NCBI GenBank assembly: GCA_002238605.1
Contig: MPMR01000032.1
Span: 1 to 44,548, forward strand
Length of the DNA: 44,548 nucleotides
DNA from: BD2-11 clade cluster bacterium bin43
GTDB taxonomy: Bacteria; Gemmatimonadota; Gemmatimonadetes; Longimicrobiales; Gaopeijiaceae
Direction: 5' to 3'
Within the stretch, counting starts at the first letter, position 1; every line of letters begins with the position of its first letter. Below the pieces are notes generated by a model that was given only the letters and a program-made list of their open reading frames with translations, made no database searches and was not told where the DNA came from. The position numbers were made by a program, and so were the translations under genes. This document shows positions 13,262-30,555 of the stretch, piece by piece.

Positions 13262-15316
13262 ATGCAGCGGCTGACCGTCCTCGCGGTTTTGACCTTCCTG
13301 TCGACGTTCGCGTACGCGCCCGAGCGCGCATCCGCCCAAGCCGGCGCCGCGAGCGTCGTGCGGCTCGAGGCATCGCCGCCGTCGGTCGTCGTCATGACGG
13401 GTGAGGAAGTCCCGTTCGAGGTGCGCGCTCTCGACGCCCAGGGCCGCGTGGTGGCGGACGCCCAGGTGCGTACGGTGGCGCCCCGGGCTGCGGCGACCGT
13501 GCGCGGGGGCACGGTCCGCGGACGGACGATGGGCGAATACGAGATCGTGGCGACGCTGCTGACGCCGCCCGGATACGAAGGAACGCCGCCCAGCCTGCGC
13601 GTTCCGCTCACCGTGCTTGCTCCCGAGGTCGCCACTGTGGAGGTCACCGCCGAGCCGGGCCGCCTCTACCGGGGGACCACCCTCCGGCATACCGCTACCG
13701 CGCGCCACGTGGACGGATCGGTGCGGCCGGGCCCGGCCGTGTCGTGGTCCAGTTCCGATCCGTCCGTTGCCACCGTCGACCGTTTCGGCTACGTGACCGC
13801 CACCGGTACGGGTGCGGTCACCATCCGGGCCGACGTGGAGGGGACGGCCGGCACGGCCGCCTACGAGGTGGCCCCGTTCCCCGCGGTCTCGCTGGACATC
13901 ACCGGGCTGGCCGACGAGGTGCGCACCGGTGACGTGCAGCAACTCAGCGCGGTAGCGCGCGACGCGGCCGGCGAAGTGGTCGCCGACGTGCCCGTCACCT
14001 GGACCCACACGGCCGTGCCCGACGCGGACATGATCGCGCCCAGCGCGCCCGGCCAGATCGCGCGCGGCCGCTTCGTCGCCGACGTGCCGGGCGTGTACAC
14101 GATCGTGGCCAACGCGGGTCCGCTGTCGGCGCGCGCGACCCTCCAGGCGGTCGTCCGTGACGCGGTGCGCGAGCTCACGCTGGTGGGAACCGGGAGCACC
14201 GCCACGGTGCGCACCACGGACTTCTGGGTGTTCGAGGGGCTCGACGGCCGCGACTACGCGCTGACGGGCGCCAAGATGTCGGACGGGTACGCCTACGCGT
14301 GGGATGTCACCGACCCGGGCAACATCTTCAAGACCGACTCCCTCCAGGTGGACGCCCGCGCCGTCAACGACGTCAAGGTCTCCCCCGACGCCCGCTACGC
14401 CACCCTCACCCGCGAAGGCGCCTCCAACCGGCGCAACGGGGTGGTCTTCCTCGACCTGGCCGACCCGGCCCACCCCGTGATCGCCTCCGAGGTGGTCGGG
14501 GGGCTCACGGGCGGGGTCCACAACGCCTTCCCCGACGACGACTACGCCTACGTGCTCGCAGCCGGCGACAAGTACGTCATCATCGATGTCGCCGACATCT
14601 ACAACCCGCGCGTGGTCGGCGAGTACAACCATCCCGACAGCCGCCTCCACGACGTCTGGGTGCTCGACGGCATCGCCTACTCGGCCGAGTGGGAGAAGGG
14701 CATGGTGGCCGTGGACGTTGGCAACGGGCGCTGGGGGGGCACCCCGGAAAACCCGGTGCTCATCTCGGAACTGGCGGTGCCGACCGGCACGACCCACGCG
14801 ATCTTCCCCTACCGGTCGCAATCCAGCGACCGGTTCTACGTGTTCGTCGGGGACGAGAACATGCAGAGGAGGGGACTCGCCAACGCGGGCCCCCGGGGCG
14901 GCGGAACGTACCAGCTGCCGTATGACCCCGAGACCGGGATGAACGGGATACCGCTCGCGACCCAGGGCTACATCCAGGTGATCGATTTCACCGATCCCGA
15001 CAATCCGGAGATGGTCGCCCGCTACGAGGTCAGCGAGTACGGCACTCACAACATCTGGGTGGAGGACGACATCCTCTACCAGGCGTACTACGAGGGCGGC
15101 CTGCGCGTGGTCGACGTTTCCGGCGAACTGATGGGCAACCTGTACACCCAGGGCCGCGAAATCGCCGTGCACAAGTCCACGGACGTGAACGGCTGGGTGC
15201 CCAACTCGACCATGGTGTGGAGCGCGATGCCCTTCAAGGGCCACGTGTTCTTCTCGGACACCAATTCCGGGCTCTGGTCGGTGAAGGTGGAGCCGCCGGA
15301 TCGGCCGGTGTCGTAG
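13262..15316 (+). CDS. secreted Ig-like (BIG2) and LVIVD-repeat protein
   Basis: A 684-residue exported protein of unknown function. A signal peptide (MQRLTVLAVLTFLSTFAYA) is followed by two or three Ig-like modules (residues ~25-300); the second has the BIG2 signature VSWSSSDPSVATVD and 'GYVTATGTGAVTI'. The C-terminal 380 residues are a beta-propeller built of LVIVD repeats, recognisable from 'YAYAWDVTDPGNIF', 'VFLDLADPAHPV', 'VIIDVADIYNPRVVGEY' and 'IQVIDFTDPDNPEMVARYE'. Such proteins are frequent in Gemmatimonadota-like genomes. It probably acts at the cell surface or in the periplasm. GGAG lies ahead of the ATG. The next gene overlaps its 3' end. Confidence 0.8.
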   Translation: MQRLTVLAVLTFLSTFAYAPERASAQAGAASVVRLEASPPSVVVMTGEEVPFEVRALDAQGRVVADAQVRTVAPRAAATVRGGTVRGRTMGEYEIVATLLTPPGYEGTPPSLRVPLTVLAPEVATVEVTAEPGRLYRGTTLRHTATARHVDGSVRPGPAVSWSSSDPSVATVDRFGYVTATGTGAVTIRADVEGTAGTAAYEVAPFPAVSLDITGLADEVRTGDVQQLSAVARDAAGEVVADVPVTWTHTAVPDADMIAPSAPGQIARGRFVADVPGVYTIVANAGPLSARATLQAVVRDAVRELTLVGTGSTATVRTTDFWVFEGLDGRDYALTGAKMSDGYAYAWDVTDPGNIFKTDSLQVDARAVNDVKVSPDARYATLTREGASNRRNGVVFLDLADPAHPVIASEVVGGLTGGVHNAFPDDDYAYVLAAGDKYVIIDVADIYNPRVVGEYNHPDSRLHDVWVLDGIAYSAEWEKGMVAVDVGNGRWGGTPENPVLISELAVPTGTTHAIFPYRSQSSDRFYVFVGDENMQRRGLANAGPRGGGTYQLPYDPETGMNGIPLATQGYIQVIDFTDPDNPEMVARYEVSEYGTHNIWVEDDILYQAYYEGGLRVVDVSGELMGNLYTQGREIAVHKSTDVNGWVPNSTMVWSAMPFKGHVFFSDTNSGLWSVKVEPPDRPVS

Positions 15317-16980
15317 GCGACGACATCCTCGAGGCCGTCGTCATCGGCGGCGGGCCCGCCGGCTCGGCGACAGCCCGCCTGCTCGCGCTGTGGGGGCATT
15401 CCGTCGTTCTGCTCACGCGGCCTCCGACCGGCCATCCCGCTCTCGCGGAGTCCGTTCCTCCCAGCGCGCGCAAGCTCTTCACCCTCCTGGGCGTCGCGCA
15501 GAAGATCGACGAGGCGGGCTTCTTCGCGGCCCGCGGCAATCTCGTCCGATGGGCCGACGCCCCGCTCCGGCGCGCCGACTTTGCGCCCGGGACTGTGGGC
15601 CATCACGTGCTGCGCGACGCCTTCGATGCCCTGCTGTTGGACCTCGCGGAAGAAGCCGGAGCCGAGGTGCGACGGGACGCGAGGGTGCGGCGGGTAGTGC
15701 GCGCGGGCGCTGCCGGAGATGGAGGGGATCCGCGCCAGCGTGTCGAGTACGAGGACGCCCGCGGCGCCGGGGCCACCCTCCGAAGTCGCTTCGTCCTGGA
15801 CTGCTCCGGCCGCTCGGGGGTGATCGCCAACCCGGAGCTGCGCGTCCACGACCAGTCGAACGCCACCGTCGCCCTGGCCGGCATTTGGCGCTCGAACGCG
15901 GACGCGCCCCCCGCAGAGCCCTACACCCTGGTGGAGAGCTACCGTGACGGCTGGGCCTGGTCGATGCCGGTATCGGACACGCGCCGCTACCTGACCATGA
16001 TGATCGACCCCCGCCGGACGCGGCTGCTCAGGGGGAAGGGTCGCCGCCGCCTCTACCTGGCCGAGCTGGAAAAGACCCGGGAGGTGCGCCGCCTGGTGGC
16101 CGATGCCCATCTGGCCAGCGACATCAGCGGGCACACTGCCTCCCAGTACACCGCGTCACAGTTCGCCGGAGACGGGCTCCTCCTTGTCGGAGACGCCGGC
16201 AGCTTCATCGATCCGCTCGCGTCGGTCGGGGTCAAGAAGGCGCTCGCTTCCGCCTGGCTCGCGGCGGTTACCGTCCACACCTGCATTTCGACGCCCGACA
16301 TGCACGACGTGGCGCTCGAGTTCTTCGAGAGTCGCGAACGGGAGACCTGGCTCGCCCATCGGCGCCACACCGCCCGGTACTACCGCGAGGCCGCTGCGGC
16401 CCACGGCCACGGCTTCTGGAGCGCACGCGCAGAGGCCGCTGGCGGCATCCCTGCGCCCGCGCCGTCGGCGCAACTCACCCGCGCGTCCGGCGCTTCCGCC
16501 TCACACGTCCCGGCCGCCGGCGAGTCCGCGTCGACGGATCCGGGGCATGCTCCCGCTCTGGATCCGGCTCACACCCCAGCCCTCGACCTGTCCGCTGAAG
16601 TCCACATCCCGGTTCCGACCGAACCCGACATTGCCGCCCTGCGCCGGGATCCCGACGTCCTTCAGGCCTTCAGCGACCTTCGCGCCGCCCCTGCGATCCG
16701 CCTGCGCCCCGCCGCCGGCCTGCGTCGCCTGCAGCTTCCAGCCGTGCGCGGCCGACGGATCGTCCTCGACGAGCACCTCGCCTCGCCCGCGCTCCCCGAC
16801 GGCGTGCGCTTCCTTCGCGACATCGATCTCCCGCCGCTCGTTGCCATGGCCGGCCGGCACGACCAGGTCCCCGACCTGTACCAGGCCTATCTGGACCGCG
16901 TCGCCACCGTCTCCCTGCCGGACTTCCTCGGCGCCCTCTCCGTCCTCCTCGGCAAGGGGATGCTGAAGAACGATCTGTAG
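15217..16980 (+). CDS. qhpG: FAD-dependent monooxygenase, probable QhpG
   Basis: A flavoprotein with the dinucleotide-binding motif VVIGGGPAGSATARLL near the N-terminus and the second FAD motif LLLVGDAGSFIDP around residue 330, in the arrangement of FAD monooxygenases related to tryptophan halogenases. In Paracoccus, QhpG hydroxylates the tryptophan of the amine dehydrogenase gamma subunit on the way to the CTQ cofactor; with the qhp genes 2 kb downstream, that is the best reading. After a Pro/Ala-rich linker the last ~110 residues look like a small helical, winged-helix-like domain that could bind the gamma subunit. Start is uncertain: the only canonical in-frame start before the Rossmann motif is GTG 15217, which overlaps the preceding gene by 100 bases; CTG 15274 is an alternative. 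Confidence 0.62.
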   Translation: MERDALQGPRVLLGHQFRALVGEGGAAGSAGVVGDDILEAVVIGGGPAGSATARLLALWGHSVVLLTRPPTGHPALAESVPPSARKLFTLLGVAQKIDEAGFFAARGNLVRWADAPLRRADFAPGTVGHHVLRDAFDALLLDLAEEAGAEVRRDARVRRVVRAGAAGDGGDPRQRVEYEDARGAGATLRSRFVLDCSGRSGVIANPELRVHDQSNATVALAGIWRSNADAPPAEPYTLVESYRDGWAWSMPVSDTRRYLTMMIDPRRTRLLRGKGRRRLYLAELEKTREVRRLVADAHLASDISGHTASQYTASQFAGDGLLLVGDAGSFIDPLASVGVKKALASAWLAAVTVHTCISTPDMHDVALEFFESRERETWLAHRRHTARYYREAAAAHGHGFWSARAEAAGGIPAPAPSAQLTRASGASASHVPAAGESASTDPGHAPALDPAHTPALDLSAEVHIPVPTEPDIAALRRDPDVLQAFSDLRAAPAIRLRPAAGLRRLQLPAVRGRRIVLDEHLASPALPDGVRFLRDIDLPPLVAMAGRHDQVPDLYQAYLDRVATVSLPDFLGALSVLLGKGMLKNDL

Positions 16981-17100
16981 GCGGACCGGTACTCCCGCGG
17001 GGAGATTGCGCGGATGGCCGGATGCCGGACCTCTTGCAGATCAACGTTGTCCCAATGGAAGATCAGAGTGACGGGTGTCTCCAACCGGGGGAAGTCGGCG

Positions 17101-18135
17101 ATGATGATTCCAGCACGGGTCGGGTTCCTCATCCCGGGGGGCATGCTGGGCGTCCTTGCGCTGCTCGGCTGCGTGCGGCAGACGCATGCGCAGGAGCCGG
17201 AGCCGGGCACCGTCTTCCGGGATTGCGACGCGTGTCCCGAGATGGTCGTGGTGCCGCCGGGGGATTTCATGATGGGGTCTCCAAGGGCGGCGCGGGGCTG
17301 GTACACCGACGAGGGCCCGCGGCACGAGGCGACGATCGGATATTCTCTCGGGGTGGGAGTCTACGAGGTGACCTTCGCCGAATGGGATGCCTGCGTCAGC
17401 ACCCGGGGCTGCATGGGCCACCGGCCGGATGACGGCGGACTGGGCCGCAAAAGGCAGCCGGTGATCAACGTCAGCTGGGAGGACGCGCGGATCTACCTCC
17501 GATGGCTGTCGGAGGAGACCGGCGAGAGCTACCGCTTGCTGAGCGAGGCGGAGTGGGAATACGTCGCGCGCGCTGGGACGGAATCGGCCTGGTACTGGGG
17601 GGAGGACTCGTCGGACCAATGCCGTCACGCCAACGGATTCGACCGGGAACTGACCGAGCAGCTCGAGGCCGAAGACGTCAGGATCAGAGTCCGGCCCGCC
17701 TCCTGTTCCGACGGCTACGAGGGGGCGGCTCCGGTGGGATCGTTCGTGCCGAACGGTTTTGGACTCCACGACGTCTCGGGCAACGTCTGGGAGTGGACGG
17801 ACGACTGCTGGAACGAGAGCTACGCGGGCGCCCCGGCCGACGGAAGGGCCTGGACGGACGGCTATTGCGTCCCGCGAGTGGTGCGCGGCGGCTCCTGGAA
17901 CAACCCTCCCGGGCTCCTGCGCTCGGCCTTCCGCGACGGGATAGGATCGCGGGTTCAATATCGGCTTCCGCGTTGCCCGGACGATGAACTGAACTCCCTG
18001 AAGTTCACAGATCGTACCTGCGGAAGCGGCCCCGTCCCGGACGACGTCAGGCGGGATCCGCCGGTTCACCCGTGTAGAACGCGATGGTCCGCCTGGCCGC
18101 GGCCCGCGCCGCAGCGGGATTTGATTCGGCCTTGA
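17101..18135 (+). CDS. SUMF1-domain exported protein with C-terminal frameshift
   Basis: An N-terminal signal (GVLALLGCVRQTHAQ, with a possible lipobox at LLGC) leads into a SUMF1/formylglycine-generating-enzyme fold. Family motifs are MVVVPPGDFMMGSP, GVYEVTFAEWDAC, YRLLSEAEWEYVARAGT, GLHDVSGNVWEWTDDCW and VVRGGSWNN. The two catalytic cysteines of true FGE near the C-terminus are absent ('LLRSAFRDGIG'), so it is not expected to make formylglycine. After 17956 the frame loses similarity, but the +1 frame reads NIGFRVARTMN and stops at 17992, which is the normal family ending. One base therefore seems inserted, by mutation or assembly error, and the remaining residues to 18135 are spurious. A GGGGGAAG ribosome-binding site precedes ATG 17101. 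Confidence 0.75.
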   Translation: MMIPARVGFLIPGGMLGVLALLGCVRQTHAQEPEPGTVFRDCDACPEMVVVPPGDFMMGSPRAARGWYTDEGPRHEATIGYSLGVGVYEVTFAEWDACVSTRGCMGHRPDDGGLGRKRQPVINVSWEDARIYLRWLSEETGESYRLLSEAEWEYVARAGTESAWYWGEDSSDQCRHANGFDRELTEQLEAEDVRIRVRPASCSDGYEGAAPVGSFVPNGFGLHDVSGNVWEWTDDCWNESYAGAPADGRAWTDGYCVPRVVRGGSWNNPPGLLRSAFRDGIGSRVQYRLPRCPDDELNSLKFTDRTCGSGPVPDDVRRDPPVHPCRTRWSAWPRPAPQRDLIRP

Positions 18136-18688: not shown

Positions 18689-18954
18689 GCCTTTCTCCTC
18701 TGGCTCTGGTCAGCCTCGTTCTCGGCTCGGTGAAGCCTGGTTTCGCGCACCGCGATCGCCATCGCCGCCTCATCACTCAAGCCGGAGGTCGAACGCCCGG
18801 GAGCGACGATTTCGCGTACGGTTTCGGAAGGGAGGATACCCCTGAATTCGAGGCTTTGCTCGATGATCTCGCCCATTGAGCGTCCCTGCCGAGCCGCAAC
18901 GTCCTTCAGGGCGCGGTGCGCCCGGCTGGTCAATGTGATCGTAAGGCGTGGCAT
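18685..18954 (-). CDS. ribbon-helix-helix (Arc/CopG-type) DNA-binding protein
   Basis: A short 89-residue product: MPRLTITLTSRAHRALKDVA is a typical N-terminal beta-strand followed by the first helix of an Arc/CopG repressor, and RQGRSMGEIIEQSLEF the second helix. The remaining residues have no recognised domain. The long open frame upstream on this strand is a shadow of qhpA; the real start is ATG 18954, 108 bases from the divergent qhpA start. The gene overlaps the next one by four bases. It could autoregulate this pair or act on the qhp promoter; a toxin-antitoxin role is less likely because the partner is SRPBCC and not a nuclease or a RelE-type toxin. Confidence 0.72.
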   Translation of the reverse strand: MPRLTITLTSRAHRALKDVAARQGRSMGEIIEQSLEFRGILPSETVREIVAPGRSTSGLSDEAAMAIAVRETRLHRAENEADQSQRRKA

Positions 18955-18979
18955 GGCATGTCCGGTCGAATCTCCCTGT

Positions 18980-19008
18980 TTGTCTCCCTTCCCCGCAGGC
19001 GATATCAT
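18980..19008 (+). promoter_or_regulatory. candidate sigma70-type promoter of the qhp operon
   Basis: TTGTCT at 18980-18985 and TATCAT at 19003-19008 are separated by 17 bases, a good match to a housekeeping promoter. Transcription would start near 19015 and leave a 48-base leader before the qhpA ATG. The site lies in the 108-base region shared with the divergent ribbon-helix-helix gene, so a regulator bound here could control both sides. Confidence 0.5.
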
Positions 19009-19062
19009 CCCTATGCCGCATACACCGGTAAACAAGAGTTTCTCCAACTTCCGGGTCCCCGC

Positions 19063-20859
19063 ATGGTTCACCGCCCTCGATTGACCCGCGCGCGCCTCTT
19101 GGCGGGGCTCCTCGTCGCAGGTGCGTCCGTCTTCGCAGCCGGCGTCAGCGCCCAGAGCGACGAGGAAGGCTTCGCGATCGAGCACGAGACCATCCGCGCG
19201 CGCTGCGCGGCATGCCATCTGCCGGATTCGGAGGGGCGCATGTCGCGTATCTCCTTCGAGCGCAAGACGCCGGAGGGATGGCAGGGCTCGCTGCAGCGCA
19301 TGATCTCGCTCAACGGCGTGACGCTCGCGCCCGAGGAAGCCCGCGAGATCGTCAAGTATCTCTCGGACCACCAGGGGCTGGCTCCGGAGGAGCTGCGTCC
19401 GGGGCTTTTCGAGGTCGAGAAGCGGATGATCGACCACCGTTACGAGGCGGACACCGACGTCGAGTTCACCTGCATCCAGTGCCATTCGATGGGGCGGGTG
19501 ATCACGCAGCGGCGCACCCGCGAGGAATGGGAGCTCCTGATGTCCACGCACCGCGGATACTATCCGCTCGCGGACTTCCAGGCCTTCCTGCGCATGGGGC
19601 CCACGCCGGACCAGCCCGGCCCCGACGGCGAGCCGCCGGACACCCGACAGCCCATGGAGCGGGCCGTCGATCATCTCTCCGAGGTCTTCCCCCTCCACAC
19701 CCCCGAGTGGGCGGCGTGGTCGGCCACCATGCGGCCGCCCCGCCTGGAGGGCACCTGGGTTCTGTCCGGTCACCAGCCCGGGCGCGGCGCGGCTTACGGC
19801 ACGGTGACCATGGGGGACGGCGGGGAACAGGACGCGTTCGTCACCCGGGCCAGCTACACACATCCGGCCACCGGCGAGACCGTCACCCGGCGGGGCCGCG
19901 GGCTGGTGTACACCGGGTACCAGTGGCGGGGGCGCTCCTTCGAGTCCGATGAAGCCGATGGGGCGATGCGCGAGGTGATGGTCGTCGAGCGCGGCATGAA
20001 CGAGATCGCGGGCCGCTGGTTCCGCGGCGACTACGACGAGATCGGCATGGATGTGCGTCTTACGCGCCTGGCCGGCTCCCCGGTTGTCGCGGGTGTCCAT
20101 CCCCACGCCCTCCAGTTGGGTGGCGGCGAGCGGGAGGTCCGCATCTTCGGGGCCGGGTTCGCGGACGACGTCGGGCCCGGAGATGTGGATCTGGGCCCCG
20201 GCCTGACCGTCAACCGGGTGGTCAGCGCCTCCTCGGAGGAGATCGCCCTCAACGTGACGCTGGCGCCCGATGCGGTCCCCGGCGGTCGCGACGTTTTCGT
20301 CGGGGGCGCGAGCCTCGCGCAGGGCGTCGTCGTGCACGACGGCATCGACCGCATCCAGGTGCTTCCGCGCACGGGCATGGCCCGCGTGGGCGGCATCGTC
20401 TTCCCGAAAGGCTACCAGCAGTTCGAGGCGGTCGCCTTCGACGACGGACCCGACGGGCGCCCGAGCTCCGACGACGACTTGGAACTGGGGCCGATCGAGG
20501 TCGAATGGAGCCTTGAGGAATACGCGGCGACCTTCGACGACAACGACATCGAGTACGTCGGCTCGATCGACCAGACGGGACTCTTCGTTCCCGCGGTCGA
20601 CGGCCCCAACCCCGACCGTGACCGCAACCGCAACAACGTCGGCGACGTCTGGGTGGTCGCCACGCTGGCACAGGACGACAACGGCGATCGTCCCCTGCGG
20701 GCCCGCGCCCACCTGGTCGTGACCGTACCGCTCTACCTCCTTTTCGACGCGGGAGCGAACGTGAGTACGGGAGCGAGCCCGGATCCGGCGGCAAGTCCGA
20801 ACGGCCGAGGAAACCGAACCCCGGGACCGGGTCCCGGAATGGGAGGCAACCCGAAATGA
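19063..20859 (+). CDS. qhpA: quinohemoprotein amine dehydrogenase alpha subunit
   Basis: This is the diheme subunit of QHNDH, a periplasmic enzyme that oxidises primary amines to aldehydes and ammonia. The 598-residue precursor has a signal peptide (ARLLAGLLVAGASVFAAG, cleavage near VSAQ). The diheme domain holds two CxxCH sites, CAACH and CIQCH, which accept electrons from the CTQ cofactor of the gamma subunit; the rest comprises the beta-rich Ig-like domains seen in the Paracoccus and Pseudomonas enzymes (LVVTVPLYLLFDAG near the end). The C-terminus has a Pro/Gly/Asn-rich tail. The qhpD start overlaps its stop by four bases (ATGA). Other start codons upstream are less likely because they precede the promoter. 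Confidence 0.93.
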   Translation: MVHRPRLTRARLLAGLLVAGASVFAAGVSAQSDEEGFAIEHETIRARCAACHLPDSEGRMSRISFERKTPEGWQGSLQRMISLNGVTLAPEEAREIVKYLSDHQGLAPEELRPGLFEVEKRMIDHRYEADTDVEFTCIQCHSMGRVITQRRTREEWELLMSTHRGYYPLADFQAFLRMGPTPDQPGPDGEPPDTRQPMERAVDHLSEVFPLHTPEWAAWSATMRPPRLEGTWVLSGHQPGRGAAYGTVTMGDGGEQDAFVTRASYTHPATGETVTRRGRGLVYTGYQWRGRSFESDEADGAMREVMVVERGMNEIAGRWFRGDYDEIGMDVRLTRLAGSPVVAGVHPHALQLGGGEREVRIFGAGFADDVGPGDVDLGPGLTVNRVVSASSEEIALNVTLAPDAVPGGRDVFVGGASLAQGVVVHDGIDRIQVLPRTGMARVGGIVFPKGYQQFEAVAFDDGPDGRPSSDDDLELGPIEVEWSLEEYAATFDDNDIEYVGSIDQTGLFVPAVDGPNPDRDRNRNNVGDVWVVATLAQDDNGDRPLRARAHLVVTVPLYLLFDAGANVSTGASPDPAASPNGRGNRTPGPGPGMGGNPK

Positions 20860-22439
20860 GCAACATTGGCATCGCCTCCGCAGCTTCGTCCGCGACGGCG
20901 GGCGCCGCTCCGCCTGCAAACGGCGGCCCCGGGCCTGCAAACGGGGCTCCCGGGCCTGCAAACGGGGCTCCTGCCCCTGCGATCCCGGGAGCTGACGGTC
21001 CCGGCTCCGCGCCCGCCCCCGACGTCCTCACCCTGGGGGAGTTCCATTCCTTCCAGGCGGAGGATTCCACCTTCCTCTACCTGGTCCCGAGCGCGGCCAT
21101 CTTCCGGCTCGACGCCCCCTCTCGGGCGGTGCTCGAGGCGCTCGAGACGGCCAACCGCACGCCCGCCGAGCTGCTCGGCATGCTGGGGAGCCGCTTCCCC
21201 GCGGAAGAGGTCGCCAACCGCGTCGAGGAACTGATGGGGGTGCGCGCCATCGGCCTCCTCGGCAAGCCCGCCCCGGCCCCTCCCGACTTGCTGCCGCCCA
21301 AGGGCTTTCCGCTCACCACGATGGTCCTGAACGTCACCAGCAAGTGCAATCTGGCCTGCACCTACTGCTACGAGTACGGCGACGACCGCATCGTCGAAGC
21401 CGACTCCAAGCCGCGCTACATGGACCTCGAGACCGCCCGCGAGAGCGTCGACTTCATGTTCGAGCAGGGCGGCACCAACCGGCTCGTCCATCTCACTTTC
21501 TTCGGCGGCGAGACCCTCCTCAACTTCAAGCTGCTGAAGAGCACGGTCGCATACGCGCGCCAGCGGGCGAAGGAAGTCGGCAAGGAGGTCGACTTCAGCC
21601 TGACCACCAACGCGACCCTGCTCAAGCCCGAGATCGTCGACTGGCTGGCGGAATACCGGGTGGGCGTGACGGTCTCCATCGATGGTCCGCGCGAAGTGCA
21701 GGACGGACTGCGCGTCTTCTCCAACGGCATGGGCAGCTACGACATCATCCTGCCGAAGATCAAGGATCTTCTGGCGCGCCACCGCACCCGCCCCATCGGC
21801 GCGCGCGTGACCCTCACCAGCAAGAACCTCGACGTGAAGGAGATCTTCACCCACCTGACCGAGGAGATCGGTTTCTGGGAGGTGGGCTTCGCGCCGGTGA
21901 CCAGTTCGTCGTGCCGCGACTTCTCCATCTCGGATGCCGGATACGACCAGATGCTCGGCCAGTTCGAGGAGCTCGCGCGCGACTTCCTCGAGCACGCCTG
22001 CGCCGACCGCCATCACGGCTTCTCCAACGTCAAGGACACCCTGGAGGAGATCCACAAGGGCGTGAGCAAGGCGTACCCCTGCGGCGCCGGCCTCGGGCTC
22101 ATGGGGGTGGCGACCGACGGCGACGTGGCGCTCTGCCATCGCTTCGCCGGCTCCGACGAGCACAAGATCGGGTCGGTGTCGGAGGGCGTGGACACCGAGG
22201 TGCAGTACGACTACCTGAAGAAGCACCACATCAACAGCAAGACCGATTGCCACACCTGCTGGGCCCGTCCCATCTGCGCCGGCGGATGCTATCACGAAGC
22301 CCACACCCGGTACGGCACCACGGGAACCCCGAACCTCCATTTCTGCGAGTGGGTTCGGAGCTGGACCGACACCTGTCTTCGAGTTTATGGAGCCATCTCG
22401 GAGCGCAACCCGGCATTCCTGGCACGATTCGACGCCTGA
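20856..22439 (+). CDS. qhpD: radical SAM maturase of QHNDH gamma subunit
   Basis: QhpD makes the intra-peptide Cys-to-Asp/Glu thioether crosslinks of the gamma subunit. The 527-residue protein has a radical SAM CxxxCxxC motif in TSKCNLACTYCYEYGDD (~residue 165), which binds the first iron-sulfur cluster, and a SPASM-type cysteine-rich C-terminus (CHTCWARPICAGGCYHEAH and a later Cys) for the auxiliary clusters. Residues ~55-130 (FHSFQAEDSTFLYLVPSAA...) resemble the PqqD-like recognition domain that binds the substrate leader. The N-terminal ~50 residues are a Pro/Gly/Ala-rich extension with a PANGAPG repeat. Start ATG overlaps the qhpA stop. It is longer than the Paracoccus protein by roughly 50 residues, mostly in that extension. 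Confidence 0.92.
   Translation: MSNIGIASAASSATAGAAPPANGGPGPANGAPGPANGAPAPAIPGADGPGSAPAPDVLTLGEFHSFQAEDSTFLYLVPSAAIFRLDAPSRAVLEALETANRTPAELLGMLGSRFPAEEVANRVEELMGVRAIGLLGKPAPAPPDLLPPKGFPLTTMVLNVTSKCNLACTYCYEYGDDRIVEADSKPRYMDLETARESVDFMFEQGGTNRLVHLTFFGGETLLNFKLLKSTVAYARQRAKEVGKEVDFSLTTNATLLKPEIVDWLAEYRVGVTVSIDGPREVQDGLRVFSNGMGSYDIILPKIKDLLARHRTRPIGARVTLTSKNLDVKEIFTHLTEEIGFWEVGFAPVTSSSCRDFSISDAGYDQMLGQFEELARDFLEHACADRHHGFSNVKDTLEEIHKGVSKAYPCGAGLGLMGVATDGDVALCHRFAGSDEHKIGSVSEGVDTEVQYDYLKKHHINSKTDCHTCWARPICAGGCYHEAHTRYGTTGTPNLHFCEWVRSWTDTCLRVYGAISERNPAFLARFDA
20913..20975 (+). repeat. 21-bp tandem repeat inside qhpD
   Basis: CCTGCAAACGG recurs at 20913, 20934 and 20955, a 21-bp period giving three copies of a seven-residue unit close to PANGAPG. 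It sits in the disordered N-terminal extension of QhpD and so is the kind of site where unit number may vary between strains. Confidence 0.75.
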
Positions 22440-22480
22440 GCCGGGTTCTTCGCGACCGCGTAAGACGAGGAGAGAGACCT

Positions 22481-22897
22481 TTGGCACTGAAACCGATCAA
22501 CCGCAAAGCGGACCGGATGGTGACCTACCTGGCGAACCAGGGCGACGTGCCTCCGGCCGAGCAGATGGCCGGGCCCGTGGATCCCGCGGCGGCGAACGCC
22601 GGCGCTGACGAGAACGCGGAGGACGTCGTCGCACTCGGGGGGCGCCTCCCCGAGATCCCGGAGATCCCGCACATCCCGCTGGGCTGCTCGCTCGTCTTCG
22701 CGCCCGGCTGGGAGGTCGACGAGGCGGGCGGCACGGCCGGGCTCTGCCAGCCGGTGGAGCGCGACCTCTTCGATTGCCACCTGGCGTGTTTCTGGCCCGC
22801 CCATGTCCCGGATCAGCTGAACCACAGCCCGGACTGGACCGGCAAGTGCGCGGCGGCGCAGAACGACTGGCGCAAGCTGGAGATGATCTTCCCGTAG
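22481..22897 (+). CDS. qhpC: quinohemoprotein amine dehydrogenase gamma subunit (CTQ-bearing)
   Basis: This small subunit carries the cysteine tryptophylquinone (CTQ) cofactor and the thioether crosslinks. Compared with my recollection of the Paracoccus mature sequence, all crosslinking residues align: Cys then Glu nine residues later (GCSLVFAPGWE), Cys then Asp six later (LCQPVERD), and CHLACFWPAHVPD, where the first Cys and the Trp form CTQ and the second Cys pairs with the final Asp eight residues on. The residue before the CTQ Trp is Phe here and Trp in Paracoccus. The ~65-residue leader (MALKPINRKADRMVTYLANQ...) is longer than the 28 residues of Paracoccus and has no Sec signal. TTG at 22481 is preceded by GAGGAGAG. 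An extra Cys lies in 'DWTGKCAAAQ'. Confidence 0.93.
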   Translation: MALKPINRKADRMVTYLANQGDVPPAEQMAGPVDPAAANAGADENAEDVVALGGRLPEIPEIPHIPLGCSLVFAPGWEVDEAGGTAGLCQPVERDLFDCHLACFWPAHVPDQLNHSPDWTGKCAAAQNDWRKLEMIFP

Positions 22898-22926: not shown

Positions 22927-22962
22927 CTGACAAAATGGCAGACGTGTCTGACAAAATGTCAT
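22927..22962. promoter_or_regulatory. paired CTGACAAAATG sites between qhpC and qhpB
   Basis: CTGACAAAATG occurs at 22927-22937 and 22948-22958, exactly 21 bases apart, on the same face of the helix. Each copy is also a near-palindrome of form CTGnCA-AAA-TGnCA(G/T). A close relative (reverse strand of 44034-44050) occurs before the right end of the window. The pair suggests an operator or internal promoter for qhpB. No experimental support is available from sequence alone. Confidence 0.5.
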
Positions 22963-22967
22963 ACCTC

Positions 22968-24128
22968 ATGAAGGATTCCCGGCGCCGGACGGCCCCCGGA
23001 CCGCGGTCCGCGCTCCCGCGCCTGATGCGCCGCTGGCTGGTGGCGTCGGCATCGATCGCGCTGTTCCCGGCCGCCGCCGCCGCTCAGGAGGTCCGCTCGG
23101 GCGGCAACGGCACCATCTACATGGGGGCCTACAACGAGTCCGTCTACGTCATCGACGAGGCGACCCTCGAGGTCACGGAGCGCATCCCGGTCACATCCGG
23201 CATCCCCAACCTGATGCAGCTCTCCCCGGACAACCGCACCCTCTACGTGCGCGACGCCGCCATGGAGCACATCGAGGTGGTCGATCTGGCCGAGGGGCGA
23301 TCGGTCGACTCGTTCACCCTGAGCGAGGGCAACACCCGGGTGCGCATCCGCTCGATGGCCGTGGACCCGGGCGGGGAGTACGTCCTGCTCGGCGCGCGCA
23401 GCTACACCAAGCTGCTCGACCGCTTCGAGATCGGCGAGTTCTCGATCCTCCGCGTCGACCTCGACACGCACGAGGTGACCGACACGGTGCCGACATCGGT
23501 GGGCGAGCAGCGTCAGGGCGCCAACCTCATGTTCTCGCCGGACGGCGACCTCCTCTACTTCTTCGGCCGCGACATCATCGCCGTCGAGACCGAGAACTTC
23601 ACCGAGGTGGACCGCTGGGAGCTGTCGCAGCCGCTGGAGGAGGGGCTCGGGCGCATGAACATGAGCTTCCAGCGCAGCCCCTACGACGACGAGGGCATCT
23701 TCACGAATCTCTTCCGGATGACGGATCCCGTGCAGGGCCGCCAGATGATGGGCATCGCGCGCGTCAACCTGGCGGAGCAGGATGTCGACTTCTATACCCT
23801 CGGGCCCAGCGAGCGGGTGAGCTTCGCGCTGGCCCCGGACGGCCGCAAGGCGTACGGGCTGCGCTCGGAAATCGGCTTCTACGAGTTCTGGACCTTCGAT
23901 CTGGAGGGGCGCCGGGTCGAGAGCCGGGTCGAGTTCCCCGGACGTCCGCGCATGTCGCTGGCGCCGAGCTCCAACGGCGAACTGCTCTACATCTACAACG
24001 CGGGCAACACCATCGACGTCTACGACGCCGACACCCACGAGCTGCTCCGGACGGTGTGGCTGGACGCCGACATGACGCGCTTCCTGCTGGTGCCCGGGGA
24101 CGCGGCCAGCAACGGCGGCGGTTCGTAG
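22968..24128 (+). CDS. qhpB: quinohemoprotein amine dehydrogenase beta subunit
   Basis: This is the seven-bladed beta-propeller subunit of QHNDH, which packs against the alpha and gamma subunits at the active site. The product (386 residues from the chosen ATG) has a signal sequence (RRWLVASASIALFPAAAAAQ) and then propeller blades rich in 'Asp-x-Asp-Thr' turns such as 'VYVIDEATLEVTERIPV', 'ILRVDLDTHEVTDTV' and 'YIYNAGNTIDVYDADTHELLRT'. Starts are uncertain: ATG 22935 lies inside a repeated operator-like motif, ATG 22968 has no clear ribosome site, and ATG 23025 gives a compact signal peptide. It follows qhpC in the same order as in Paracoccus. Confidence 0.9.
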   Translation: MKDSRRRTAPGPRSALPRLMRRWLVASASIALFPAAAAAQEVRSGGNGTIYMGAYNESVYVIDEATLEVTERIPVTSGIPNLMQLSPDNRTLYVRDAAMEHIEVVDLAEGRSVDSFTLSEGNTRVRIRSMAVDPGGEYVLLGARSYTKLLDRFEIGEFSILRVDLDTHEVTDTVPTSVGEQRQGANLMFSPDGDLLYFFGRDIIAVETENFTEVDRWELSQPLEEGLGRMNMSFQRSPYDDEGIFTNLFRMTDPVQGRQMMGIARVNLAEQDVDFYTLGPSERVSFALAPDGRKAYGLRSEIGFYEFWTFDLEGRRVESRVEFPGRPRMSLAPSSNGELLYIYNAGNTIDVYDADTHELLRTVWLDADMTRFLLVPGDAASNGGGS

Positions 24129-24249: not shown

Positions 24250-25974
24250 CTGATCGGCCGCGAGGTCCGCTGGGCCCTCGGCTTCGTCCGCCCCTACGCG
24301 AAGTGGCTGGTGCTGGTGCTCGCGGTGAGCCTGACGGGCACCGTGCTCTCGCTCTTCATCCCCTACCTCTCGAAGGACCTGGTGGACACCGCGCTCCTGG
24401 GGCGGGACACGGCCGCGCTCACCCGCATCGTGGCGCTGTTCGCGGGGATCACGGTGCTCTCCTTCGGGCTGAACGTGGTGGCGGGGATGCGCTACACGCG
24501 CACTTCGGCGGACATCCTCTTCGACATGCGACTGGCGCTCTACCGGCACCTGCAGCGCCTCTCGCCCCGCTTTTACGCGCGCACCCCGATCGGGGACATC
24601 ATGTCGCGCATCAACAACGACATCGGCGAGATCCAGCGCGTGGTCTCCGAGAGCCTGCTGGCGTGGCTGATGAACGGCGCGTACCTGGTGGGAACGGTGG
24701 CCATGCTGATCTGGCTGGACGCGCGGCTGTTTCTGGTGAGCCTGGCGGTCCTGCCGCCCTGCCTGTGGGCGCTGGTTCGCTATCGGAGGCGTCTCGAGCG
24801 CATCACCGGCGAGTTGCGGGAGCGGAGCGCCGAGATCGGCAGCTTCCTGATCGAGACCATCCTCGGCCTCAAGCTGACCGTGGCGTCGAACGCGCAGAGC
24901 CGGGAGCAGCGTCGCTTCCGGAAGAAGAACGACGGCTTCATCCGCACGCTGATGTCGATGCGGTTGCTGACCTATCTCGCCGGCGGGCTGCCCGGGCTGA
25001 TTCTGGCCGGTGGGGTCGCGGCCGTCTTCCTGTACGGGGGCCAGAGGGTGATCACGGAGGTGATCACGATGGGGACGTTCGTCGCCTTCATGGCCTATCA
25101 GATGCGGCTGCTCGGGCCCATCCAGGGGCTGATGGGGCTCTATGCGAGCCTGGCGACGGCGCGGGTCTCGCTCGGGCGCGTCCATGTGATTCTGGACAGC
25201 CCGGTGCACGTGCGGGACCCGGAGCGGCCGGCGAGCGCGGCGGGGCTGGGCGGGGAGCTCAGGCTGGAGGAGGTGAGCTTTTCGTTCGGGCGCGGGGAGC
25301 CGGTGCTGGACGGGGTCGACCTGGCGGTGGCGGAGGGGGAGGTGGTGGCGGTCGTGGGCGCGAGCGGGAGCGGGAAGTCCACCATCGTGGACCTGCTGTC
25401 GCGGCAGCTCGATCCGGACGCCGGCCGGATCCGGCTGGGGGGCCGCGACCTGCGCGTGCTGCGGCTCGAGGACGTGCGTGCGGCCGTGGTGCCGGTGGAG
25501 CAGGAGCCCTTTCTGTTCAACACCACTATCGCGGACAACATCCGTTACGGCCGGCCGGGGGCGTCGGACGGGGAGGTTGAGGCGGCCGCGCGCGCGGTGG
25601 GGCTGGACGCCTTCCTCGCCACCCTGCCGGACGGCCTGGAGACGCAGGTCGGGGAGCAGGGGCGGGAACTGTCGGCGGGGCAGCGCCAGCGGGTCGCGGT
25701 CGCGCGCGCCTTCCTGGCCGACCCGCGGGTGCTGGTGCTCGACGAGCCCACCGCGTCGCTCGACCCGGCCTCGGAGCGCGCGCTCATGGAGGGCTACCAG
25801 GCCGTGATGCGGAGCCGCACGACGATCCTGGTGTCCCACCGGCTTGCGCTCGCCCGGCGGGCCGATCGGGTGGTGGTGCTGGAGCGCGGCCGCATCGTGG
25901 AGGAAGGCACGGCCTCGGAGCTGCTTCGGCGGGGCGGAAGCTTCGCCCGGTTGTTCGGGGGGGAGGGGGGTTAG
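24250..25974 (+). CDS. qhpF: ABC exporter of QHNDH gamma subunit (QhpF)
   Basis: A half-transporter with an N-terminal six-helix membrane domain (LVLVLAVSLTGTVLSLFIPY is TM1) and a C-terminal ATPase. ATPase motifs are Walker A VGASGSGKST, the signature LSAGQRQRVAVARAF, Walker B VLVLDEPTASLD and the H-loop in ILVSHRLALARRA. In Paracoccus, qhpF encodes the transporter that moves the processed gamma subunit across the inner membrane, and it occupies the same position after qhpB there. No ATG, GTG or TTG lies between the preceding in-frame stop and GTG 24310, which would cut off the elbow helix; CTG 24250 is the best guess. The stop codon overlaps a 19-bp direct repeat described below. Confidence 0.85.
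   Translation: MIGREVRWALGFVRPYAKWLVLVLAVSLTGTVLSLFIPYLSKDLVDTALLGRDTAALTRIVALFAGITVLSFGLNVVAGMRYTRTSADILFDMRLALYRHLQRLSPRFYARTPIGDIMSRINNDIGEIQRVVSESLLAWLMNGAYLVGTVAMLIWLDARLFLVSLAVLPPCLWALVRYRRRLERITGELRERSAEIGSFLIETILGLKLTVASNAQSREQRRFRKKNDGFIRTLMSMRLLTYLAGGLPGLILAGGVAAVFLYGGQRVITEVITMGTFVAFMAYQMRLLGPIQGLMGLYASLATARVSLGRVHVILDSPVHVRDPERPASAAGLGGELRLEEVSFSFGRGEPVLDGVDLAVAEGEVVAVVGASGSGKSTIVDLLSRQLDPDAGRIRLGGRDLRVLRLEDVRAAVVPVEQEPFLFNTTIADNIRYGRPGASDGEVEAAARAVGLDAFLATLPDGLETQVGEQGRELSAGQRQRVAVARAFLADPRVLVLDEPTASLDPASERALMEGYQAVMRSRTTILVSHRLALARRADRVVVLERGRIVEEGTASELLRRGGSFARLFGGEGG
25956..25974. repeat. 19-bp direct repeat, left copy (qhpF stop)
   Basis: The sequence C-G7-A-G6-TTAG is at 25956-25974 and forms the last codons and TAG stop of qhpF. 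An identical copy occurs at 27703-27721. Together the copies bracket the hipBA pair. Beyond the 19 bases the flanks do not match. Confidence 0.8.
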
Positions 25975-26047: not shown

Positions 26048-26079
26048 GGTTGGCGAGCAACCGCAACCCGAGAAACCCG

Positions 26080-26376
26080 ATGTTCGTCCGCACACCCGTC
26101 GATGTCGGCTTGATGATCCGCGAATCCAGGCGCACCCGCCGCATGACCCAGCACCAGCTCGCGCGCGCTGCGGGCGTTGGCCGCCAATGGATTGTCGCAA
26201 TTGAGGCAGGAAAGCCGCGTGCCGAGCTGGGCAAGGTGCTCCAGACCCTCGCGGCGCTCGACCTGTCACTGTCGATCCGGGGCGAGGGCATCCCCGATGT
26301 CTCGACCGGCGATGCCCCGATCGAGGCTGGCGATATCGACGCGGTTGTGGAAGCGCACCGACGAGCGCAGCCGTGA
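26080..26376 (+). CDS. hipB: HipB-like XRE-family antitoxin
   Basis: A 98-residue HTH protein: MIRESRRTRRMTQHQLARAAG and then VGRQWIVAIEAGKPRAELGKV form the classic Cro/CI helix-turn-helix, and 'LQTLAALDLSLSIRG' the dimer strand. It is the DNA-binding antitoxin of a HipBA module and should repress its own promoter. I chose ATG 26080 over TTG 26050 because the HTH aligns from there. The gene ends in a four-base GTGA overlap with hipA. Confidence 0.88.
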   Translation: MFVRTPVDVGLMIRESRRTRRMTQHQLARAAGVGRQWIVAIEAGKPRAELGKVLQTLAALDLSLSIRGEGIPDVSTGDAPIEAGDIDAVVEAHRRAQP

Positions 26377-27653
26377 CCGAGCGGCTCGTCGCGGTGGCGA
26401 GCCAACGCGTCATGGGGTACGTCACGCGGCAGGCTGGGGGCAGACTCTCCTTCGCGTACGACGCCGGCTGGCGGCTGGCGGAGAACGCATATCCGTTGTC
26501 CCTGTCGATGCCCCTCGCGGCCGCAGAACACGGTCACGACAAGATCGAACCGTGGCTGTGGGGATTGTTGCCCGACAACGAGAATGTCCTCGCGCGCTGG
26601 GGTCGCAAATTCCAGGTATCGGCGCGCAGCGCGTTTGCATTGCTGGGTGCGACCGGGGAGGACTGTCCGGGGGGAGTCCAGTTCGCCCGGCCTGATCGCG
26701 TTGAGCGGCTGCTAGGCGGCGAAGCCGAACCGGTGGAGTGGCTGACCGAGGCGCAGGTTGGGGAGCGCCTCGGCGCATTGGGCGAGGACGGCAGTGCGTG
26801 GCGGCTGCCGGGCGACGGGGGCCAATTCAGCCTTGCCGGGGCACAATCCAAGACGGCGTTGCTCCTGAAGGATGGGAGATGGGGCGTCCCGCGCGGGTCA
26901 ACGCCCACCACGCACATCCTGAAGCCGCCGATCCCCGGCTTCCCGGGCCACTGCGAGAACGAACACCTGTGTCTTACCCTGGCCCGCGCGCTCGGACTGC
27001 CGGCGGCCCGGTCGCGGGTGGCCCGTTTCGGGGACGAGACCGCGATCGTCGTCGAGAGGTACGACCGCATCACTACCCCTGATCGCCTGGCTCGGGTGCA
27101 CCAGGAGGACCTGTGCCAGACGCTGGGAATCCCGCCGACCAGGAAATACCAGAGCGACGGGGGCCCGGGGTGCGGACTGATTATCGATGCGATTCGGACA
27201 CATTCCCGCCGGCCCGGCCGCGATGCCCGTACCTTCGCGCGGGCCATTGCACTGAACTGGATCATCGGCGGTACCGATGCGCACGCCAAGAACTTCTCCA
27301 TGCTGATCGGGCCGAGCGGGCACGGGTCTCTGGCTCCCCTCTACGATGTCGCGAGTCTGCTACCCTATCCTGGCCACTATGCGCCAAGGCTCAAGATGGC
27401 GACCACGATCGGCGGCGAGGCTCGGCTCGGTTACATTCGAGCGAGACACTGGGAGCGGTTCGCCAAGGAGGCGGCGCTGGCACGAGATGAAGTGCTGGAC
27501 ATGTGCAGATCGCTGGCTGCGGAGATCCCGGACTGCTTTCGCAGTGTCGTCACGGCCGCCCGCTGCCAAGGCTTGGATCACCCGGTCGTTCCCGCGTTGG
27601 AGGACGCGGTCCTCGCCCGCGCCGGGGCGTGCCTGGCCAGTCTCGATGCCTGA
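26373..27653 (+). CDS. hipA: HipA-like serine/threonine kinase toxin
   Basis: A 426-residue HipA-family kinase, which in E. coli phosphorylates glutamyl-tRNA synthetase and induces persistence. The N-terminal HipA_N segment (VMGYVTRQAGGRLSFAYDAGW) is followed by GGQFSLAGAQSKTALL (the ATP-binding loop region with the autophosphorylation serine neighbourhood), CENEHLCLTLARALGLP, and the catalytic NWIIGGTDAHAKNFSML and LAPLYDVAS. All kinase residues appear present, so the toxin may be active. The GTG start is within the hipB overlap, with coupled translation. A 50-base non-coding tail leads to the right copy of the 19-bp repeat. Confidence 0.92.
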   Translation: MTERLVAVASQRVMGYVTRQAGGRLSFAYDAGWRLAENAYPLSLSMPLAAAEHGHDKIEPWLWGLLPDNENVLARWGRKFQVSARSAFALLGATGEDCPGGVQFARPDRVERLLGGEAEPVEWLTEAQVGERLGALGEDGSAWRLPGDGGQFSLAGAQSKTALLLKDGRWGVPRGSTPTTHILKPPIPGFPGHCENEHLCLTLARALGLPAARSRVARFGDETAIVVERYDRITTPDRLARVHQEDLCQTLGIPPTRKYQSDGGPGCGLIIDAIRTHSRRPGRDARTFARAIALNWIIGGTDAHAKNFSMLIGPSGHGSLAPLYDVASLLPYPGHYAPRLKMATTIGGEARLGYIRARHWERFAKEAALARDEVLDMCRSLAAEIPDCFRSVVTAARCQGLDHPVVPALEDAVLARAGACLASLDA

Positions 27654-27702: not shown

Positions 27703-27721
27703 CGGGGGGGAGGGGGGTTAG
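27703..27721. repeat. 19-bp direct repeat, right copy (vapC stop)
   Basis: An exact copy of the sequence at 25956-25974 (C-G7-A-G6-TTAG). Its TTA is the reverse-strand stop codon of vapC, so the repeat ends within the converging gene. The spacing between the copies is 1,747 bases and the interval contains only hipBA and its promoter. Confidence 0.8.
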
Positions 27722-28149
27722 CGACGGTCCGTCGAGCGAGGAGGCCGGAAGCGAGCGAACACCTCCACCCGAACCGGAAGCCGCGGCGCTCTGCCCAGAC
27801 GGGCATCCGTTGTAAGCAGGGGGGCATCGAGGCCTTCGGCGAGCGTTACGTATGCCGCATCGTACGACGTCAGGTTGTATCGCCAGGACCAGAGTCTCGG
27901 GATGATCGGTCCATGCGGGTGCCGGCGCATATCGAGATCGCTCAGATTGTCGATGGCCTGGGCAACGCGATCGGGCGGGACGATGTCTGCCAGTTCGTAC
28001 CGGCGGAGCGTGTTGAGGACCTCGATGTCCACGAGCTCGGGACTGTGCAGCGAGAGCTGCGGATGGGAGACTCGCCTTAGAATCTCCATCCCCGACCGGG
28101 TTCCGAGCACAAGCTCGATGACCGCGGAGGCGTCCAGGACGGCGATCAC
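27718..28149 (-). CDS. vapC: VapC-type PIN-domain ribonuclease toxin
   Basis: A 143-residue PIN domain: VLDASAVIELVLG gives the first acidic residue, 'PELVDIEVLNTLRR' the second, and LTSYDAAYVTLAEGLDAPLLTTDARLG the third and fourth. It is expected to cleave RNA. The start is GTG at 28149, six bases after the vapB stop, consistent with a co-transcribed pair. The stop lies in the right copy of the 19-bp repeat, and the gene converges on hipA. Confidence 0.9.
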   Translation of the reverse strand: MIAVLDASAVIELVLGTRSGMEILRRVSHPQLSLHSPELVDIEVLNTLRRYELADIVPPDRVAQAIDNLSDLDMRRHPHGPIIPRLWSWRYNLTSYDAAYVTLAEGLDAPLLTTDARLGRAPRLPVRVEVFARFRPPRSTDRR

Positions 28150-28155
28150 GTCGAG

Positions 28156-28386
28156 CTAACGGCTTTCCCGCTCCTCTCGCAGGACGTCGCTCGGAGGGGG
28201 ATCGAGTTCAATGGGCGGCAGCTGGGCGATCCTGGCGAACAGTTCCTCGCGCGTCGGCTTCTCGAGTAGTCGTTCGATCTCGCAGAGCACGTAGTCGGAC
28301 ATGGACATACCGAGATGTGCGGCGCGAGCCTTGAGCCGACGGTGGAGGCTGTCGGGGACATTCCGAATCTGAAGCATCTTGTACAT
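28156..28386 (-). CDS. vapB: VapB/FitA-type antitoxin
   Basis: A 76-residue ribbon-helix-helix antitoxin: MLQIRNVPDSLHRRLKARAAHLG is the FitA-like strand-helix and MSMSDYVLCEIERLLEKP the second helix. The acidic-proline C-terminus (PPIELDPPPSDVL) is the region that occupies the toxin's active site in FitAB/VapBC. ATG 28386 is used; ATG 28377 (Met-Leu-Gln) is equally plausible. If the proposed promoter is right, the message has almost no leader. Confidence 0.88.
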   Translation of the reverse strand: MYKMLQIRNVPDSLHRRLKARAAHLGMSMSDYVLCEIERLLEKPTREELFARIAQLPPIELDPPPSDVLREERESR

Positions 28387-28421
28387 GTGAACAGCATGGT
28401 TTCATGTGACTAACATGTCAA
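28384..28421 (-). promoter_or_regulatory. vapBC promoter and CATGTGA operator repeats
   Basis: On the minus strand, TTGACA (28416-28421) is followed after 17 bases by CATGCT (28393-28398), a weak -10. The vapB ATG begins six bases later, so transcription would start at or next to the start codon. CATGTGA occurs at 28384-28390 and 28403-28409 (19-bp period) and is the likely operator of the VapBC complex. Confidence 0.45.
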
Positions 28422-29247
28422 GGTGTTTCCGTCAGCTTGTGTGGTCGCCGGCGCTTCAACTCCATATCATCGACCTCATGTCACGAATGGAAGAATGGGA
28501 ACACCGCGAACTGCGGCTGGACGATGCCGCCTTGGCGGAGCGGAGGGGCGAGGGCATCCGCATCGCGGTGGTGGACAGCGGGGTTCACTCGCTGCATCCG
28601 CATGTGGGTGGCGTCGCGGGCGGGGTGGCGATCGGGCGGGACGAGACGGAAGCCGACGACTACCTCGACCGGCTCGGCCACGGAACGGCCGTCGCCGCCG
28701 CCATCAGGGAGAAGGCGCCCGGAGCCGAGTTGTTCGCCGTGAAGGTCTTCGGCGACCGCCTGGCGACCAGCTGCGGCGCCCTGGTGCGGGCCATCGAATG
28801 GGCGGCGGAGCACGAGGCGCGGCTCATCAACCTCAGCCTGGGGACGACGAATCCGGCGCATGAAGTCAGGCTCGCCGAGGCGGTGGCGGGCGCTGCGGAT
28901 GCCGGATCGCTCGTCGTGTCGGCACGTTCCGGCGGTGGCCGAACGGGAGAGGAGGGAACGCCGGAGGGCGAAGGCGTGCGCTGGCTTCCCGGATCGATCC
29001 CCGGCGCCATCGGCGTGCTGCTGGACTGGAGCTGTCCCCGCCATTCAGTGCGGGTGCGGACCGACCACCGGGGAGCCCCGGCGTTCCTCGCCTCGGGTTT
29101 TCCGCGGCCGATCCCCGGCGTCTCTCCCGCGCGCAACCTGGGCGGCATCAGCTTCGCGGTGGCCAACGTGACGGGCGTGCTCGCCCGGCTGCTGGAGGCG
29201 GAGCCGAAGGTGCGGAGCGCGAGCCAGGTCTTCGAGTCCGCCCGCCG

Positions 29248-30555
<1,308 letters not shown>

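Follow-up and report, generated by a model that had tools for sequence, protein, structure and literature searches.

QhpC of a Gemmatimonadota bacterium: conserved crosslinking residues and a probably modular leader

The qhp locus and its qhpC gene

The window, i.e., the whole analysed stretch of 44,548 nt, contains a complete qhp locus with qhpA, B, C, D, E, F, and G all present; the coordinates of these genes and of their features refer to the forward strand. The qhpC gene (22481–22897) has a TTG start and encodes the 138 aa precursor of the gamma subunit. Its product matches PF08992 (E 9e-33, score 112.5; cut-off 25) and NF037958 (114.6 bits; cut-off 50), and QhpC is single-copy in the 4.47-Mb source genome. 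It is a genuine QhpC, the gamma subunit of quinohemoprotein amine dehydrogenase.

Upstream and downstream of qhpC lie the genes for the alpha subunit QhpA with two CxxCH motifs (18916–20859; TIGR03908, 478 bits), the radical SAM/SPASM maturase QhpD (20856–22439; TIGR03906, 556.5 bits), a divergent beta subunit QhpB (22935–24128), the ABC exporter QhpF (24310–25974; PF00664/PF00005), the subtilisin-like leader protease QhpE (28406–29278), and the FAD Trp dihydroxylase QhpG (15217–16980). The order qhpG-A-D-C-B-F-E is retained in relatives. QhpE reaches 153.5 bits against NF049966, just under the cut-off of 165, and QhpG 238.4 bits against NF049967 (cut-off 240; match to 7CTQ with E 4e-19). QhpB, which is found at its conserved place, scores 65.7 bits with TIGR03907 (cut-off 223), compared to 368 for QhpB of Paracoccus pantotrophus. 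Since these three proteins score under the NCBIfam cut-offs, we base their assignment on synteny and on catalytic residues, and automatic annotation may miss this branch.

Other genes are interspersed in the locus. A protein resembling FGE-sulfatase/PvdO is encoded between qhpG and qhpA (17014–18135), and other members of the genus have this protein in the corresponding region. Between qhpF and qhpE we observed a HipBA-like pair (26050–27653) and a VapBC pair (27718–28386); among the genus members read at this position, one (L123/L037) has VapBC and none has HipBA.

We gathered 177 related loci, corresponding to 108 distinct QhpC sequences. Of these, 96 belong to the branch of the window, which comprises Gemmatimonadota, Acidobacteriota, and one Novosphingobium, while the remaining 12 are of the Paracoccus type and stem from four genera (Paracoccus, Pseudomonas, Leisingera, and Cupriavidus). 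In G022, a genome from the same family, only the 3′ half of qhpC is present (L129:4262–4582, from ACFWPAHVPD on), preceded by unrelated sequence; this copy is degraded or misassembled.

Start codon and N-terminus

A Shine-Dalgarno sequence (GAGGAG, 22467–22472) is located 8 nt before the TTG, and AGGAG is present 7–8 nt ahead of the TTG of qhpC in all ten genus members. Alternative starts, among them the ATG at M13 and the GTG at V14, have no Shine-Dalgarno sequence and would delete a block at the N-terminus that is conserved across phyla. Its motif LKPINxKA opens QhpC in Gemmatimonadota and Acidobacteriota and occurs in a variant form in Pseudomonadota. An alternative start that gives a short leader, which would have spoken against the reading made from the sequence only, is thus not supported. 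As judged from this conservation the TTG start is sound, and since both TTG and Shine-Dalgarno sequence are conserved in the genus, the long N-terminus of QhpC is real.

Crosslinking residues of the core

The crosslinked core (22685–22894) harbours the residues for three thioethers, C69-E78, C89-D95, and C103-D111, and for the cofactor CTQ, C99-W105, as predicted by homology. In the gamma subunits studied so far the links are Cys7-Glu16, Cys27-Asp33, Cys41-Asp49, and the CTQ pair Cys37-Trp43 (numbering, PMC8172795). No gaps are needed to align residues 67–138 with the Paracoccus (1JJU) and Pseudomonas (1JMX) gamma subunits, and the four pairs of the window, with spacings of +9, +6, +8, and +6, respectively, are the counterparts of these links. 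All eight residues and their spacings are identical in 108 of 108 distinct relatives, a number that reflects co-occurrence and not an unbiased frequency, since the pattern used to find relatives demanded most of the crosslinking residues. The view of the sequence-only reading that all Cys to Glu/Asp and Cys-Trp spacings follow the Paracoccus pattern is confirmed by this alignment to family sequences.

By homology to the Paracoccus and Pseudomonas systems, QhpD would form the three Cys-to-Asp/Glu thioethers, and QhpG would dihydroxylate W105, which would then form CTQ with C99.

Leader organization and predicted cut site

In nearly every relative the QhpC leader has the same three parts, an N-block, a linker of 5–49 aa, and a short hydrophobic box; behind the box, 6–22 residues form an arm that reaches to the first Cys. 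In the window, the N-block comprises residues 2–18 (ALKPINRKADRMVTYLA; 22484–22534), is conserved across phyla and predicted to be helical (pLDDT of the QhpC structure model 46), and is presumably the segment recognized by QhpD. A low-complexity linker of variable length (residues 19–46; 22535–22618) leads to the box EDVVA↓L (residues 47–52; 22619–22636; the arrow marks the predicted QhpE cut after A51). The predicted mature subunit begins with LGGRLPEIPEIPHIPLGC, and its N-terminal arm (LGGRLPEIPEIPHIPLG; 22634–22684) has 17 aa, compared to 6–7 in the Paracoccus type.

The published QhpC leader has 28 residues (PMC7876137), which end precisely at EVVA↓M in the Paracoccus protein and at EVAA↓M in that of Pseudomonas. 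Across the relatives the box follows the consensus [DE]V[VIR][AG]↓[LM]. It was found in 85 of 85 leaders, while 0.56 were expected from shuffles. When only five sequences were aligned with MAFFT the box did not register, but it did so once intermediates were added, and V49 is invariant over a 50-sequence alignment with intermediates and the Paracoccus type. Within the genus there are no non-synonymous pair differences in the box, pN/pS is 0.004 for the core and 0.33 for the linker, and in-frame indels are confined to the linker. For the N-block, 9 non-synonymous and 9 synonymous pair differences are too few to gauge selection, so the evidence for its constraint comes from the comparison across phyla. 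Because the box aligns with the known cut, is conserved, and is under strict constraint, we predict that QhpE cuts at A51↓L52, leaving a leader of 51 aa and a mature arm of 17 aa. QhpE would remove these 51 residues and QhpF would export the product, followed by assembly with QhpA and QhpB.

The sequence-only reading had put the leader at about 65 residues versus 28 and considered it unusually long. The N-terminus is indeed long, with 68 residues to the first Cys compared to 34 in Paracoccus, but the box points to 51 and not to about 65 residues for the leader itself. Predicted leaders in the branch of the window range continuously from 20 to 64 aa (median 33; 13 of 95 have at least 51), while those of the Paracoccus type all have 28. 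The leader of the window therefore belongs to the long end of a continuous length distribution and is not singular.

Two other readings of this region were considered. The QhpE cut might lie some 6 residues ahead of the first Cys, so that the leader would have 62–65 residues and be read differently by QhpD and QhpE. The mature gamma subunit of Paracoccus has 6 residues ahead of Cys7, and a P[HN]xP[LM]G motif just ahead of the Cys is conserved in the branch of the window, which would fit such a position. However, no conserved motif resembling the known site is found there, while the motif of the known cut is located at residues 47–52, the most strictly constrained part of the whole leader, and we regard this reading as unlikely. 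Alternatively, the box may mainly represent a beta-strand bound by the RRE domain of QhpD, with the cut elsewhere. Leaders bound by RRE domains join them as an additional strand (PMC6231123), VVAL is strand-prone, and QhpD has an RRE-type domain. On the other hand, the known cut in Paracoccus and Pseudomonas falls inside the box (PMC7876137 together with our alignment), and the N-block offers another universally conserved leader segment. Although the box could be an RRE-binding strand instead of, or besides, a protease site, a cut at another position appears unlikely to us. The data are best explained by a leader made of an N-block, a disposable, disordered linker of variable length, and a cut box, and we have considerable confidence in this explanation as a whole.

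Leader recognition by QhpD and QhpE

According to published work, QhpD binding requires the leader (PMC7876137). QhpD of the window retains the N-terminal RRE-type fold, CxxxCxxC, and all seven SPASM Cys. In its predicted structure the first 52 residues are disordered and are followed by a beta-beta-beta-alpha-alpha-alpha-beta unit (residues 58–134, pLDDT about 90), which corresponds to the RRE-type domain. Over its whole length, CteB residues 2 to 450, leader-bound CteB (5WGG) is matched by the model (Z 33.5, rmsd 4.9, 430 residues), and CteB binds its own leader via the RRE domain (PMC6231123). The RRE-type domain of QhpD would presumably bind the N-block (LKPINxKA...), the hydrophobic box would be the QhpE cut site, and the linker would be free to vary in length, so that the extra length of the leader would be linker and not a new recognition element.

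The sequence-only reading had also proposed that QhpD and QhpE may read the longer leader differently. Altered recognition is not indicated by our data, because both conserved leader segments are kept and only the spacer has grown, and because leaders of 20–64 aa occur across the branch. The enzymes point in the same direction: the RRE-type domain of QhpD is retained, as are the Asp/His/Ser motifs of QhpE. In this reading, the comparison of leaders distinguishes the parts on which QhpD and QhpE would depend, i.e., N-block and cut box, from the linker that they would ignore.

The disordered N-terminus of QhpD, about 52 aa, is rich in Pro, Ala, and Gly and is absent from a close relative (L035). 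A relation between this extension and linker length was considered and rejected, since the correlation is weak (r 0.28, by a crude measure) and L035 lacks the extension.

Phe104 and Cys123

The residue before the CTQ Trp is Phe in 92 of the 108 distinct sequences, Tyr in 4, and Trp in 12, and Trp at this position is confined to the Paracoccus/Pseudomonas/Leisingera/Cupriavidus type. Phe104, which had been pointed out in the sequence-only reading as a replacement of Trp, is present as described there, but it is the norm of the branch and not unusual. In the docking model of QhpG, Trp42 is placed against W74, L268, and F322 (PMC7876137). Comparison of the QhpG sequences suggests that this pocket is mostly kept in the branch of the window: W74 and L268 are retained (with L268 changed to Met in a few sequences), and F322 is mostly Phe, with Tyr in the window.

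QhpG of this branch shows further differences. Arg70, which is essential in Ps. putida, is replaced by Asn, Arg314 varies, Ser stands opposite Arg47 in an alignment with ambiguous gap placement, and a long Ala/Pro-rich insert separates the FAD and C-terminal domains.

A feature not mentioned in the sequence-only reading, and worth testing, is a fifth cysteine, C123 (22847–22849). It is Cys in 96 of 96 distinct sequences of the branch and Ala in 12 of 12 of the Paracoccus type. The branch thus adds an invariant Cys to a subunit noted for the crosslinking of all its cysteines, and we found no description of a fifth QhpC Cys among open-licence papers. D129 (22865–22867), located +6 from C123 and invariant in both types, is a candidate acceptor of a fourth thioether, and position 134 is acidic (Asp/Glu) solely in the branch of the window. 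An inter-subunit disulfide was rejected: within the enzyme no partner for C123 was seen, because QhpA of the branch has heme cysteines only and QhpB has no conserved Cys. QhpD of the branch carries an invariant extra Cys as well, C507, which is outside of the seven SPASM Cys and is Gly in the other type. We do not consider C123 and C507 to be linked by real covariation, because both follow the same single deep split and the distant maturases of Embleya and Rhizobium have Cys and Ala, respectively, at the latter position.

C123 may be a free thiol in the protein interior or serve there in packing, and we lean slightly towards this explanation. Replacing Ala by Cys is conservative where the site is small, and the search for partners in QhpA and QhpB gave none, although strict invariance across phyla, with Novosphingobium included, speaks against it. 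QhpD may instead form a fourth thioether at C123, most likely with D129, so that the gamma subunit would have five crosslinks including CTQ. The spacing of +6 equals that of the known Cys27-Asp33 link and is within the known reach of QhpD, C123 follows the branch without exception, the lack of an extra conserved Cys in QhpA and QhpB leaves no disulfide partner, and QhpD differs between the types by its extra C507. Several observations oppose this: D129 is equally invariant where the Cys is absent, the Cys/Ala difference tracks a single deep split, and the QhpC model, at low confidence, places residues 119–128 in a helix, which is unfavourable for an i,i+6 link. Moreover, the invariance of C123 is a weak argument by itself, because invariant positions make up about half of the columns of the core in the branch. 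As judged from these sequence comparisons, a fourth thioether is rather unlikely.

Comparison with known systems

QhpC of the window is probably an ordinary, functional member of a known system, whose branch differs consistently from the studied enzymes. Within the quinohemoprotein amine dehydrogenase family it likely represents a second branch, with a probably modular leader. With QhpC of Paracoccus denitrificans and Pseudomonas putida (1JJU, 1JMX) it shares the core length, the residues and spacings of the four crosslinks, the partner genes, the N-block, and the cut-site box. It differs from them by a leader linker of 37 aa versus 13, a mature N-terminal arm of 17 (predicted) versus 6 residues, Phe instead of Trp before the CTQ Trp, the fifth Cys C123, and Asp/Glu at position 134, and QhpB of the window is very divergent from its counterpart.

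QhpD of the window has the RRE-type domain, radical SAM domain, and SPASM domain in common with QhpD-type maturases and with the SCIFF maturase CteB (5WGG). It differs in that its substrate is a whole protein subunit, and it has a Pro/Ala-rich disordered N-terminus of 52 residues and the extra Cys507. Another arrangement was observed on a plasmid of Rhizobium sp. CB3171 (L145:1360–5034), where genes for QhpD-like radical SAM and QhpG-like FAD enzymes adjoin two ORFs with weak likeness to split GoxA/LodA, one of them with LCSPWQNDYRECACYYWAASRPD, resembling the QhpC core; by their sequences, these ORFs possibly represent a LodA-type CTQ protein with a radical SAM partner.

QhpC of Candidatus Palauibacter, Longimicrobiales, and Bryobacteraceae shares the fifth Cys, the CFW/CYW motif, the PHIPLG arm, and the DVVAL/DVVGL box with the window, while linker length differs among the Gemmatimonadota and Acidobacteriota proteins, from 5 to 49 residues. 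The biochemically studied enzymes of Paracoccus and Pseudomonas represent one branch only, and the other one is common in Gemmatimonadota and Acidobacteriota.
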